A DNA stretch of 39,878 bases from Candidatus Hydrothermarchaeota archaeon (lineage in GTDB: Archaea > Hydrothermarchaeota > Hydrothermarchaeia > Hydrothermarchaeales > BMS3B): NCBI GenBank assembly GCA_015521615.1, contig WANW01000036.1:1-39878 (forward strand). The letters are read 5' to 3'. Of this stretch, positions 1,848 to 39,878 are shown piece by piece; the first letter of the stretch is position 1, and every line of letters begins with the position of its first letter. Below the pieces are notes generated by a model. The model did no database searches and was not told the origin of the DNA. It worked only from the letters and a program-made list of their open reading frames with translations. Position numbers and translations under genes: made by a program.

Positions 1848-3227
1848 ATGGACATACCGCGCATTCTCATCTCGGGCACCTCAAGCAGGGCGGGCAAGAC
1901 GGTGATAAGCATAGGTTTGATGCGCGCCCTGCGCAACCGCGGCTACCGCGTGGCGCCCTTCAAAGTTGGACCAGACTTCATCGACCCCAGCTATCACCTG
2001 TTCGCAACCGGGAGGGTAAGCAGGAACCTTGACGGCTACATGATGAGCGACGGGGACATACTCGAGGCCTTTGTAAGGAACTCCAGGGGCGCTGACATAG
2101 CGGTAATCGAGGGCACCATGGGGCTGTACGACAGCCACAATGCGGTAGATGCCAGGGGCAGCACCGCCGAGGTGAGCAAGGTTATTAAAGCACCCGTGGT
2201 GCTCGTCGCCAACGTGGAGCGAATCTCCCGCACGGCTGCCGCTTTTGTGCTGGGCTACAGGCTCTTTGACCCTGAGGTTAACCTCGCTGGCGTTATACTC
2301 AACCGCGTGGGTAACCCCAGGCACGCGTACAAGGCGAAGACCGCGGTGGAGGTGCTTGCGAAGATGCGCGTCTTCGGCACCGTGCCGAGGAATCCCGGCA
2401 TAGAGATACCCGAGCGCCATCTTGGTCTAATTCCAGCGTACGAGAAGGACAAACTCGAGCAGCTCTTCGACAATTTGGCGAGCGTTGTGGAGGAGCACAT
2501 AGATGTGGAGGCGCTGGTGGAGGTCGCGAGAGAGGCGCCAGAGCTGGAGGACGTGCCGCCGAATCCTCTCTTCTCCCAGCCGAGGGAGCCCAGGGTTACG
2601 CTGGGCTTTGCGAAGGATGTGGCCTTCACCTTCTACTACCAGGACAACTTGGACGCCTTCGCAGCGCAGGGGGCAAGGCTCGTGCCCATAGACACGCTCC
2701 GCGACTCCGCGCTGCCGGAGATTGACGCCCTCTACATAGGCGGTGGCTTTCCCGAGGTAATGGCAGAGCAGCTTGAGCGCAACCGCCCGCTGAGGCGCAG
2801 CATATATGACTTCTGCGAGAGCGGCAGGCCATGTTATGCGGAGTGTGGCGGGCTCATGTACCTGGGGCAAAGTATAAATACCAGAGATAATCATGAATAC
2901 GAGATGGTGGGCTTCCTGCCCATCGCCACAGAAATGAAGGCTAAGTTTCAGGCTCTTGGTTATGTGAGGAACCGCGCTGTTCGTGATAATCCCATAAGCA
3001 GGAGTGGTGATCTCTTGGTGGGACACGAGTTCCACTACTCCAGGGTTAAGGCCTTTGAGAAGCTGAGCTTTGCGTACCGCGTTGAGAGAGGAAAGGGTGT
3101 GGACGGCACCCATGATGGTATAGTGAAGGATAACACCCTGGCGAACTACATGCATGTTCACGTACTTTCCTACCCTGGCATGGTGAACAATTTTTTGAAA
3201 GTAGCAGAAAAATTTAAAAGCGCGTAG
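1848..3227 (+). CDS. cobB: Cobyrinate a,c-diamide synthase (CobB/CbiA family)
   Basis: This enzyme is an ATP- and glutamine-dependent amidase acting on the a and c side chains of a tetrapyrrole. The N-terminal dethiobiotin-synthetase-like domain carries the P-loop SGTSSRAGKT (residues 9-18), followed by VGPDFIDPSYH. The C-terminal class I glutamine amidotransferase domain has its nucleophile in YAECGGLMYLG (Cys333) and a late His in HVHVLSYPG. Length (459 residues) is normal. A TTG at 1842 is possible, but the Shine-Dalgarno-like GGAGAGG at 1834-1840 is only 1 nt from it and 7 nt from this ATG. No other cobalamin gene is nearby. Methanogens use the homologue CfbB for coenzyme F430 (Ni-sirohydrochlorin a,c-diamide), and sequence alone does not separate the two roles here. 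Confidence 0.88.
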   Translation: MDIPRILISGTSSRAGKTVISIGLMRALRNRGYRVAPFKVGPDFIDPSYHLFATGRVSRNLDGYMMSDGDILEAFVRNSRGADIAVIEGTMGLYDSHNAVDARGSTAEVSKVIKAPVVLVANVERISRTAAAFVLGYRLFDPEVNLAGVILNRVGNPRHAYKAKTAVEVLAKMRVFGTVPRNPGIEIPERHLGLIPAYEKDKLEQLFDNLASVVEEHIDVEALVEVAREAPELEDVPPNPLFSQPREPRVTLGFAKDVAFTFYYQDNLDAFAAQGARLVPIDTLRDSALPEIDALYIGGGFPEVMAEQLERNRPLRRSIYDFCESGRPCYAECGGLMYLGQSINTRDNHEYEMVGFLPIATEMKAKFQALGYVRNRAVRDNPISRSGDLLVGHEFHYSRVKAFEKLSFAYRVERGKGVDGTHDGIVKDNTLANYMHVHVLSYPGMVNNFLKVAEKFKSA

Positions 3228-26687: not shown

Positions 26688-26760
26688 TGGACCCGCCGGG
26701 ATTCGAACCCGGGGCCGCTCGCATGCCAAGCGAGCACTCTACCAGCTGAGCTACGGGCCC
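26688..26760 (-). tRNA. tRNA-Ala, anticodon GGC
   Basis: All four arms fold over 73 nt. The acceptor is GGGCCCG with CGGGTCC, including the G3-U70 pair that defines alanine identity. The D arm is GCTC/GAGT. The anticodon stem CTCGC/GCGAG encloses TTGGCAT with anticodon GGC. The variable loop has five bases, and the T arm is CCGGG-TTCGAAT-CCCGG. The discriminator is A, CCA is not encoded, and there is no intron. A TATA-like CCTTAAAC lies about 26 bp upstream of the expected start. It reads GCC and GCU codons. Confidence 0.97.
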
Positions 26761-36646: not shown

Positions 36647-36670
36647 CTTCAGAAAGTTTGATCATCATAT
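36647..36670 (+). repeat. 24-bp direct repeat, copy 1
   Basis: The segment starting CTTCAGAAAGTTTGATCATC is identical to 36750-36773, with a 103-bp period. After a one-base difference the similarity continues into TGCGGTAT of the following hairpin in both copies. Confidence 0.85.
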
Positions 36671-36749
36671 ATGCGGTATTCAATACCGCCATGAAGGTGG
36701 TATCGCAGATACCACATTATGGCGATGCAACCGGCTGCGGTTGCGCGGG

Positions 36750-36773
36750 CTTCAGAAAGTTTGATCATCATAT
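36750..36773 (+). repeat. 24-bp direct repeat, copy 2
   Basis: This is an exact copy of 36647-36670. It starts at the last base of the outer inverted repeat and is followed by a shorter hairpin, so it looks like the start of a second, truncated unit. Confidence 0.85.
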
Positions 36774-36817
36774 TGCGGTATCTTGCGATACACTATGTTT
36801 GCCACGGAGACGGGTAA

Positions 36818-37983: not shown

Positions 37984-38847
37984 ATGGAGTATCTGCTTGG
38001 ATTTCAGGGAATTGAGCGCCTGGTAGAGCTTCGCAGGCATGGTGAAGTGGTTGTACTCCTGCCCAAGATAGAGGTTTTTCTCTACCCTCCTCCACGGATT
38101 GAGGTGCATGAAGTACAGGAGTTGGTGACCTCCGCGATAGATGGGGTTGTGGCGAAGGGTATTTCATCGCCGGAGGAACTCCCTGCGCTTGCGCTGAGGC
38201 ATGTCAGCGAATCCCTGCCCGAGCTTGAGCGGGCACGCATTGAGATGCGCGCCGAGTACATAGTATTCAGGCGCACACCCGTGACAAAGCAGGAGACGCA
38301 GGAGATGTACCAGATTCTCGCACGAGCTACGCTTGAGGGAGGAAAGATCACGCCAATGATTGGTGCTGAAGTCACGGGCATAACCGCCTGTCCCTGCGCC
38401 CATGAGGGCCTGGTTGAGAAGACGCGGGAAAAACTCAAAGGAAAATTCTCAGAGGAGGAGATTCAAACGATATTCAGCTCTGTACCGGTGGCGAGCCACA
38501 ACCAGCGCAACATCTCAACACTCATGCTGAGCGTTGTGCAGGGGGAGCGAATAGAGGTGGATGAGATAATAGAAATCCTGGAGAACTCCATGAGCTCCCG
38601 CCTCTATGAGGTCCTGAAGCGCGAGGACGAGGTGGAGGTGGTGTACCGCGCCCATCTGAACCCCAACTTCGTGGAAGATACGGTGCGCAAGATCCTTGTC
38701 AACACCCTTGAGAGGTTTTCCTCGCTGCCCGACGATACAGTGGTGTACGCGAAGAGCGAGAGCCTGGAGAGCATCCATCAGCACAACGCCGTTGCCGAGC
38801 GAATGACAACCCTCGGGGAGCTGAGGAGGGAGGTTAATATACGGTAG
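37984..38847 (+). CDS. mptA: GTP cyclohydrolase MptA (FolE2 family)
   Basis: This Fe(II)-dependent GTP cyclohydrolase opens the pterin ring pathway, leading to methanopterin- or folate-type cofactors. The 287-residue protein carries the family signatures GAEVTGITACPCA (metal-binding Cys region), PVASHNQRNISTLML, and the C-terminal HQHNAVAERMTTLGELRREV. It is slightly shorter at the N terminus than typical enzymes (about 310), and no better upstream start is visible, since a stop precedes it in frame at 37951. A T-rich TATA-like region near 37940-37952 would allow a short leader. Its last 58 bp are repeated beyond the vapBC genes, so the 3' end may have been replaced during an insertion. Confidence 0.92.
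   Translation: MEYLLGFQGIERLVELRRHGEVVVLLPKIEVFLYPPPRIEVHEVQELVTSAIDGVVAKGISSPEELPALALRHVSESLPELERARIEMRAEYIVFRRTPVTKQETQEMYQILARATLEGGKITPMIGAEVTGITACPCAHEGLVEKTREKLKGKFSEEEIQTIFSSVPVASHNQRNISTLMLSVVQGERIEVDEIIEILENSMSSRLYEVLKREDEVEVVYRAHLNPNFVEDTVRKILVNTLERFSSLPDDTVVYAKSESLESIHQHNAVAERMTTLGELRREVNIR
38779..38836 (+). repeat. 58-bp direct repeat within the end of mptA, copy 1
   Basis: It matches 39590-39647 at 57 of 58 positions (G at 38816, T at 39627). It encodes QHNAVAERMTTLGELRREV of MptA and lies 811 bp from the second copy. Confidence 0.93.
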
Positions 38848-38882
38848 GGAATTAAAAAGCTACTAAAAACAAAATAGAAAAT

Positions 38883-39332
38883 CTATGGGCTATTTTTTTC
38901 TAAATCACTCAAAACGACGATTTCAATCTCCTCTACTTTCTTCAGCCTCTTATCGTTTGTCAGGAAAAAGGAAGCTCCGGCATAAATCGAGGTAGCTATC
39001 TGGATGGCATCCGGTGTTCGTATCCCATACTTTGCTCTTAGCTTGGCGGCTTCTATTGCTATATCGCTCAAAACAGGATAAACCCGCAAATTTTTTGCGT
39101 TTAGTAATATTTCTGTATATTTCTTAACCAGATCCTCACGAGCAATCCGATATGGTTGAACGAGAACTTCCAATATGGTTATTGTGGATGTGACGCCTTC
39201 ACATTCACCTTTGTCTATTAATTTAAAAACAGGTTCCACAACTCTGGAAAACCTGCCAGCCTCTATGAAATATATCACCGGAGAGGTATCTATTCCTATT
39301 ATTTCGCCCTGGAGGCTCTTTAGAAGTTCCAT
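38883..39332 (-). CDS. vapC: PIN-domain toxin, VapC-like
   Basis: The 149-residue single PIN domain has the acidic quartet visible as Asp15 (GIDTSPVIYFIE), Glu55 (TILEVLVQP), Asp108 (RTPDAIQIATSI) and Asp127 (FLTNDKRLKK). It is a predicted magnesium-dependent RNase that halts translation when free of its antitoxin. The start overlaps the upstream antitoxin gene by 13 bp, the usual tightly coupled order. The AT-rich sequence differs from the flanking mptA, and the pair lies between two copies of the mptA 3' end, suggesting arrival as a unit. Confidence 0.92.
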   Translation of the reverse strand: MELLKSLQGEIIGIDTSPVIYFIEAGRFSRVVEPVFKLIDKGECEGVTSTITILEVLVQPYRIAREDLVKKYTEILLNAKNLRVYPVLSDIAIEAAKLRAKYGIRTPDAIQIATSIYAGASFFLTNDKRLKKVEEIEIVVLSDLEKNSP

Positions 39333-39532
39333 GAAGACCTCTCACTTTCTATATACTTCTCTACATCCACAGCCTCCCATACATCCCTCCCCAACCCTTT
39401 CAGCTCGAGGATGCTCCTCTTTTTCATTTTACTCTCCAGCATGAAAATTAACTCCTCCAGCAGTTTTATCTGCTCCTCTACCTCCAGTTTCTTTATTTCT
39501 CTCAGCATGGAGTCTCTTATCGATGCACTCAT
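39320..39532 (-). CDS. Putative VapB-type antitoxin
   Basis: The 70-residue protein begins with a helix resembling DUF2281-like and RelB-like antitoxins (IRDSMLREIKKLEVEEQIKLLEELIFMLE). It ends with a toxin-binding-type tail (LKGLGRDVWEAVDVEKYIESERSSW). No clear AbrB or ribbon-helix-helix domain is visible, so the identification rests partly on its position directly upstream of and overlapping the PIN toxin. A GAGGTGG site lies 5 nt before the ATG. An inverted repeat at 39558-39580 in the promoter region is a candidate autoregulatory site. Confidence 0.85.
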   Translation of the reverse strand: MSASIRDSMLREIKKLEVEEQIKLLEELIFMLESKMKKRSILELKGLGRDVWEAVDVEKYIESERSSWNF

Positions 39533-39557
39533 CTTTCCACCTCAGAGATTTGAAATC

Positions 39558-39580
39558 AAATTCCCGTAAACAAGGAATTT
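39558..39580. promoter_or_regulatory. Inverted repeat upstream of the antitoxin gene
   Basis: AAATTCC (39558-39564) and GGAATTT (39574-39580) are exact reverse complements with a 9-bp spacer, 26 bp upstream of the antitoxin ATG. This is where toxin-antitoxin complexes usually bind to repress their own operon. Confidence 0.4.
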
Positions 39581-39589
39581 TGTCCCTTC

Positions 39590-39647
39590 CAGCACAACGC
39601 CGTTGCCGAGCGAATGACAACCCTCGTGGAGCTGAGGAGGGAGGTTA
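39590..39647 (+). repeat. 58-bp direct repeat of the mptA end, copy 2
   Basis: This is a displaced copy of the mptA C-terminal codons. In the same frame it continues to its own stop (ERMTTLVELRREVRR, TAG at 39653-39655), so it retains a coherent gene end. No start or upstream mptA sequence is attached. Confidence 0.93.
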
Positions 39648-39659
39648 GGAGATAGCGCC

Positions 39660-39690: not shown

Positions 39691-39712
39691 GATTATTTGA
39701 GCGATTCTAAAA

Positions 39713-39729
39713 GTTCACCACCAGTGAAC
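39713..39729. promoter_or_regulatory. Inverted repeat upstream of the last gene
   Basis: GTTCAC and GTGAAC flank CACCA in a perfect 6-bp dyad. It lies 15 bp upstream of a TATA-like CTATAAAT (39745-39752), the position expected for an activator or repressor site. Confidence 0.4.
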
Positions 39730-39744
39730 ATTTTGAAGATTGTT

Positions 39745-39752
39745 CTATAAAT
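39745..39752 (+). promoter_or_regulatory. TATA box for the gene at the window end
   Basis: CTATAAAT would place transcription start near 39775, and an overlapping alternative ACTTATAG (39754-39761) near 39784. Either leaves a 43-52 nt leader that includes the paired segments at 39784-39817. Confidence 0.45.
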
Positions 39753-39783
39753 TACTTATAGCAGAAGCAGTACTGTAATAGCC

Positions 39784-39817
39784 GGGGAGGCGCCTCCTCA
39801 AAGAGAAAAAGAGGAGG
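39784..39817 (+). promoter_or_regulatory. Leader with mutually exclusive hairpins over the ribosome-binding site
   Basis: CCTCCTC (39793-39799) pairs perfectly with GAGGAGG (39811-39817), which is the Shine-Dalgarno site of the next gene. The same CCTC segment can instead pair with GGGGAG at 39784-39789 around a GCGC loop, freeing the site. This is the layout of a translational switch or thermosensor. Confidence 0.45.
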
Positions 39818-39826
39818 TGATGTTGG

Positions 39827-39878
39827 ATGAGGAGTAGATGGATAAAGGTCGTGCTGCCAGCACTGCTTACGATGCTGC
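39827..39878 (+). CDS. N-terminus of a probable exported or membrane protein, 3' partial
   Basis: ATG 39827 follows GAGGAGGTGA (39811-39820) at 6 nt and opens MRSRWIKVVLPALLTML before the window ends. Basic residues followed by a hydrophobic run suggest a signal peptide or first membrane helix. An ATG at 39820 in another frame stops after five codons. Too little is present to assign a family. Confidence 0.5.
   Translation, partial: MRSRWIKVVLPALLTML

Follow-up and report, generated by a model that had tools for sequence, protein, structure and literature searches.

How did a toxin-antitoxin-like gene pair come to lie between two copies of the 3' end of mptA in a member of the Hydrothermarchaeota, and which of the two copies is the original end of the gene? 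The spread of chromosomal toxin-antitoxin (TA) pairs outside plasmids, phages and transposons is an open question. A sequence-only reading of the locus had proposed site-specific integration by an element that brought its own copy of the mptA end. Here we compare the locus with its relatives, with the rest of its own genome and with TA loci across the class. The window, by which we mean the whole 39,878-nucleotide stretch of DNA analysed, is the entire contig 36 of the host genome (G000; 1.80 Mb in 100 contigs).

A duplicated end of mptA encloses a VapBC-like cassette

The repeat is direct and 58 nt long, with 57 identical positions (98%) and a start-to-start spacing of 811 bp (38779-38836 and 39590-39647). 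The chance expectation of such a repeat in a random 40-kb sequence is about 1e-24, and it is one of two direct repeats in the window with E<=1e-3. Both copies run in frame to a stop, the left as ...ELRREVNIR* and the right as ...ELRREVRR*, with a TAG ending at 39655. The features of the locus are as follows.

37984..38847, plus strand: mptA, GTP cyclohydrolase MptA, 287 aa (TIGR00294, E 3.4e-76)
38779..38836, plus strand: left (proximal) 58-bp copy, joined to the mptA body (direct repeat, 98%)
38837..38882, no strand: left end of the insert, which supplies the mptA stop (ATA CGG TAG); unmatched in relatives
38883..39332, minus strand: vapC-like toxin gene, PIN domain, 149 aa (PF01850, E 4.7e-16)
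39320..39532, minus strand: vapB-like putative antitoxin gene, 70 aa, 13-bp overlap with vapC (open reading frame)
39533..39589, no strand: right end of the insert, the region upstream of vapB, with two palindromes (from the sequence)
39590..39647, plus strand: right (distal) 58-bp copy, with one derived base (direct repeat)
39648..39655, plus strand: native mptA end (GGAGATAG, stop TAG), displaced by the insertion (similarity to G001 and G004)

The insert of 753 bp has a GC content of 40.2%, compared with 53.8% in the window and 55.4% in mptA, and the vapB-like and vapC-like ORFs, both on the minus strand, are its only genes; the palindromes, found by eye, occupy 39548-39561 and 39558-39580. 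The identity of mptA, the spacing and single mismatch of the repeat, its two in-frame ends, and an AT-rich pair with short inverted repeats as all that lies between the copies are thus as the sequence-only reading had described them. Elsewhere in the window, a 33-bp direct repeat (97%; 36647-36679 and 36750-36781, 103 bp apart) occupies the gap upstream of a chorismate synthase gene. Positions 39711-39878 hold the leader and start of a signal-peptide-like gene, within which the contig terminates; this sequence recurs at three sites on contig C15 of the same genome with 80-98% identity.

The toxin ORF carries the PIN domain that marks a VapBC toxin, and the vapB-like ORF is encoded upstream of it and overlaps it. 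The vapB-like protein has relatives in G009 (69% identity) and G011 (37%), and shares a C-terminal motif with the latter, which looks AbrB-like. In VapBC type II systems the gene of the PIN-domain toxin follows, and overlaps, a small antitoxin gene, an arrangement seen here too; the difference is that the putative antitoxin matches no Pfam or NCBIfam model above cut-off, and we regard the pair as a putative, VapBC-like type II TA system. A search of 23 genomes for the DNA of the insert returned nothing apart from 137 bp of a vapB homologue in G009, which lie at a contig start and not at mptA. VapC was not found in phages or in IMG/VR, the matches being distant ones on cyanobacterial and Thermus plasmids.

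Relatives without the insertion reveal its polarity

MptA shares 91% identity with its counterpart in Candidatus Pyrohabitans jungbluthii and 81-82% with those of two further congeners (Hydrothermarchaeota). Three genomes of the genus (G001, G003 and G004) each have a single, uninterrupted mptA end, and vapBC is absent from all three, which identifies the pair as an insertion; no relative among the three lacks vapBC while retaining both copies, the arrangement that the sequence-only reading had named as refuting an insertion. In G004, mptA (L008, G004:C72:465-1312) is split over two frames near position 596, by either a frameshift or a sequencing error.

The same comparison gives the insertion its polarity. 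Alignment to G001 and G004 through the right copy extends seven bases past the repeat, to 39654, while alignment through the left copy ends at 38835. Since the similarity of the relatives continues only on the right, the right copy is the displaced native tail, and since it stops at 38835 on the left, the left copy has been completed by sequence of the insert, which gives mptA its new end NIR*. At the single mismatch all three relatives agree with the left copy, and the derived base is in the right copy, as would follow from a loss of selection on that copy. We take these observations as confirmation that the cassette was truly inserted at the 3' end of mptA and that the target was duplicated.

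The remaining question is the source of the second copy. The two copies differ at 1/58 positions and the mptA genes of other species at 4-13/58, so the second copy is best interpreted as a duplicate of the mptA end of this lineage, made from host DNA when the cassette was inserted, rather than as a homologue carried in by a foreign element. Of the earlier proposal that one copy is native and the other supplied by the element, the first half stands, for the right copy, and the second half is not supported, given this near-identity.

This bears directly on site-specific integration, according to which a small or decayed element with an attachment site at the 3' end of mptA was integrated by an integrase acting in trans and restored the end of the gene. 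A gene-end repeat enclosing a cassette and leaving mptA open is what such an event would produce, and two tyrosine-integrase genes are present elsewhere in the genome (C52 and C53). The insert, however, is without an integrase, the repeat matches the mptA of its own lineage at 57/58 positions, and a search of viral contigs for the pattern of the mptA tail gave one IMG/VR match, which is not mptA-like. A tRNA gene as target was ruled out, the sole tRNA of the window being at 26688.

Another alternative is homologous integration of the Campbell type. Here a circle carrying a conspecific mptA tail together with vapBC, and derived from a strain that already had vapBC behind mptA, would have recombined with the native gene. 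This predicts exactly the structure observed, with the left end NIR* as the end of the donor, yet it requires an earlier insertion at the same place.

Sibling loci in the same genome

Both alternatives can be judged against the rest of the genome. We compared 1.78 of the 1.80 Mb of G000 with itself, looking for direct repeats of 25-100 bp around inserts of 0.4-1.5 kb. Few such repeats occur besides paralogue arrays, intragenic repeats and CRISPR-like repeats, and most of the remaining high-identity repeats show the anatomy of the mptA locus, as listed here.

C45: repeat of 61 bp, 98%; encloses a ParE/RelE toxin (E 7.5e-12) and its partner, a RelBE-type pair
C79: repeat of 50/51 bp, 88%; encloses a ParE-like (RelE-type) toxin and a convergent putative antitoxin
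C57: repeat of 27 bp, 96%; encloses a DUF2283/DUF4258 pair
C85 (G000:C85:3783-4700, L204): repeat of 57/58 bp, 98%; encloses an acylphosphatase-like gene and a 128-aa ORF

The ParE-like toxin of C79 scores just below the Pfam cut-off, and the repeat there consists of the final codons, stop included, of a gene lying upstream, which by eye resembles an HD-domain protein gene. At C57 the repeat lies within the 3' end of a radical-SAM-like gene (by eye) that is conserved in four relatives. The 128-aa ORF of C85 belongs to no family and appears coiled-coil-like by eye; the repeat lies directly upstream of a gene resembling, again by eye, a mannose-1-phosphate guanylyltransferase gene. In G012 the C85 flank and the guanylyltransferase-like gene are just 176 bp apart; the empty site is clear only at mptA and partial at C85, which may be a hitherto unrecognised cassette of two genes comparable with the TA insertions. 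The repeats of C46, C29, C23 and C34 were excluded as paralogue arrays or intragenic repeats, that of C38 as a likely tandem paralogue, and the 30-bp repeats of C21 and C85 as CRISPR-like by appearance.

Across loci the direct repeats range from 27 to 79 bp (58 bp at mptA). Those of nine loci are mutually unrelated, the longest word that they have in common being 11 nt, and the inserts of different loci have no common ends. Terminal inverted repeats are lacking, the longest inverted words near the insert ends being 7 nt at mptA and 4-8 nt elsewhere, none of them terminal. Unrelated repeats, the lack of common ends and the lack of terminal inverted repeats disfavour both an integrase with an attachment site and a transposon. 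The 11-nt limit argues against an attachment site shared among the loci and says nothing on an integrase specific to mptA. Given that the sibling inserts occupy unrelated sites flanked by repeats of 27-79 bp, that the mptA insert has no integrase and that its flanking copies are 1/58 apart, we consider the site-specific interpretation improbable, and its element-borne site probably wrong. Campbell-type integration is in our view very doubtful, since every one of the other loci, whose repeats are all unrelated, would have needed a donor circle of its own.

Repeats are enriched around ParE/RelE loci of the class

In the 23 genomes of the class, 7/30 ParE_toxin (ParE/RelE) loci are enclosed by direct repeats, compared with 5/400 random positions of G000, several of these within paralogue arrays (Fisher p 2e-6), and with 0/530 overlapping positions in the mptA-centred loci of other genomes; neither control was matched gene by gene. 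The excess holds with the four cleanest ParE loci alone (p 0.002). Among 19 other VapC-like loci no such repeat was seen, these being weak matches that may include non-TA PIN proteins. The sampling covers one lineage in draft assemblies.

The same anatomy recurs in several variants. At L288 it is the terminal part of a CBS-domain gene (PF00571) that is repeated, and the distal copy continues in frame. In G010 (L262:1400-2102) the repeat is an orphan tail resembling trpF, present as two diverged copies around a ParE-type pair; a PIN gene adjoins this locus, from which the body of trpF is absent. In G017 (L289:1168-1817) it is a promoter-like segment (by eye) ahead of both the ParE-type pair and the next gene. 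The repeats of L289 and C85 sit upstream of a gene and not at gene ends; the gene or genes after the second promoter-like repeat of L289 resemble a HicBA pair. Longer direct repeats were also noted near ParE-like matches, one of 299 bp (96%) in G020 (L279:317-615 and 1787-2085) and one of 256 bp (88%) in G005 (L290:1974-2227 and 2789-3036).

These loci also bear on the possibility that a vapBC contig was put in the wrong place because of an overlap or strain bubble in the assembly graph. The genome is fragmented into 100 contigs, and the end of the window is repeated on contig C15. Against an artefact, the copies at different loci are non-identical (by a mismatch, an indel or several differences), the repeats vary from 27 to 79 bp in length, and the pattern is found in several independent assemblies and around TA pairs more than elsewhere. 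We judge such an artefact unlikely, with a very small chance of explaining the locus.

A target-duplicating capture as the probable mechanism

Common to the loci are a compact cassette, a duplicated target of 27-79 bp and an adjacent gene with its end or promoter preserved. The most plausible account is that about 0.75 kb of foreign DNA carrying vapBC was captured close to the mptA terminus in an insertion that duplicated its target and had no site specificity, and that this has probably been a recurrent route into Hydrothermarchaeota genomes. On this capture account, 58 bp of the host mptA would have been duplicated at insertion and would now lie to the left and right of the cassette. The mptA frame remains open since the copy still attached to the gene body runs into a chance stop after three further codons (NIR), which would be largely supplied by the insert, and the distal copy would be a dead, slowly drifting tail.

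For the molecular joining step, we infer that a short DNA may have been captured at a staggered or replication-associated break or template switch and both sides filled in. The joining itself could have been carried out by the Ku/LigD-type end-joining operon of the genus, which in G000 encodes a LigD-type primase-polymerase (PolDom), Ku and an ATP-dependent ligase (G000:C93:18797-21332; L258:798-3333). Ku is present in 5/5 genomes of the genus, the G003 copy being a fragment at a contig edge, and a search of four archaeal control genomes gave no match. Ku was also not found in G010, G014 and G017, all of which hold repeat-flanked TA pairs, so Ku end joining cannot be the general step. Once captured, the insert would be retained if both neighbours kept an intact gene end or promoter and if the TA pair resisted loss; the duplication may in this way act as a filter through which insertions that spare the neighbouring genes survive.

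Tentatively, and with rather less confidence than for the mptA locus, we suggest that type II TA pairs may be minimal mobile units in need of neither transposase nor integrase, which reach new genomes by target-duplicating capture, in this genus by archaeal Ku-LigD, and whose insertions are tolerated in consequence of the intact gene end or promoter left to the neighbour. The same anatomy around unrelated TA pairs points to a way in which they could be mobile with no transposase, and its recurrence around unrelated TA families in one archaeal lineage provides a countable footprint of insertion. Such a footprint allows insertions to be dated through repeat divergence, empty sites to be found and candidate machineries such as Ku-LigD end joining to be tested.

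Comparison with known systems

SSV-type and tRNA-targeting integrative elements likewise duplicate a gene end around an insert and leave the gene open, whereas here there is no integrase, siblings have no attachment site in common and a number of the repeats are found ahead of genes. Duplication of a gene end around a cassette is, then, no sure sign of an integrase. Insertion sequences and MITEs, including those with long target duplications, are similar in their direct repeats of the target and differ in that the inserts described here have neither transposase nor terminal inverted repeats.

The closest parallel is with restriction-modification (RM) genes, which insert with long target duplications according to the summaries of Nobusato et al. 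2000 given in PMC3874152 and PMC1643837; PMC3031569 is a further source cited on known insertions of this kind, and a review compares RM and TA systems in their addiction and apparent mobility (PMC2654758). As those summaries present them, RM insertions are like the mptA locus in consisting of a short selfish cassette with a long, variable duplication and no need of a transposase on the cassette, and in having an empty site in a related genome. We found no account of TA pairs with long target duplications in a literature search that did not reach the primary RM papers (Nobusato 2000; Furuta 2010), where a prior description is possible. The duplications of RM insertions are, in the same summaries, of the order of 100 bp, compared with 27-79 bp here, and the cargo at mptA is a PIN toxin with a small putative antitoxin ORF in an archaeon, with no RM system. 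Because its cargo is not RM, the mptA locus is a variant rather than a plain member of the long-target-duplication insertions, among which TA cargo in archaea appears to be new.
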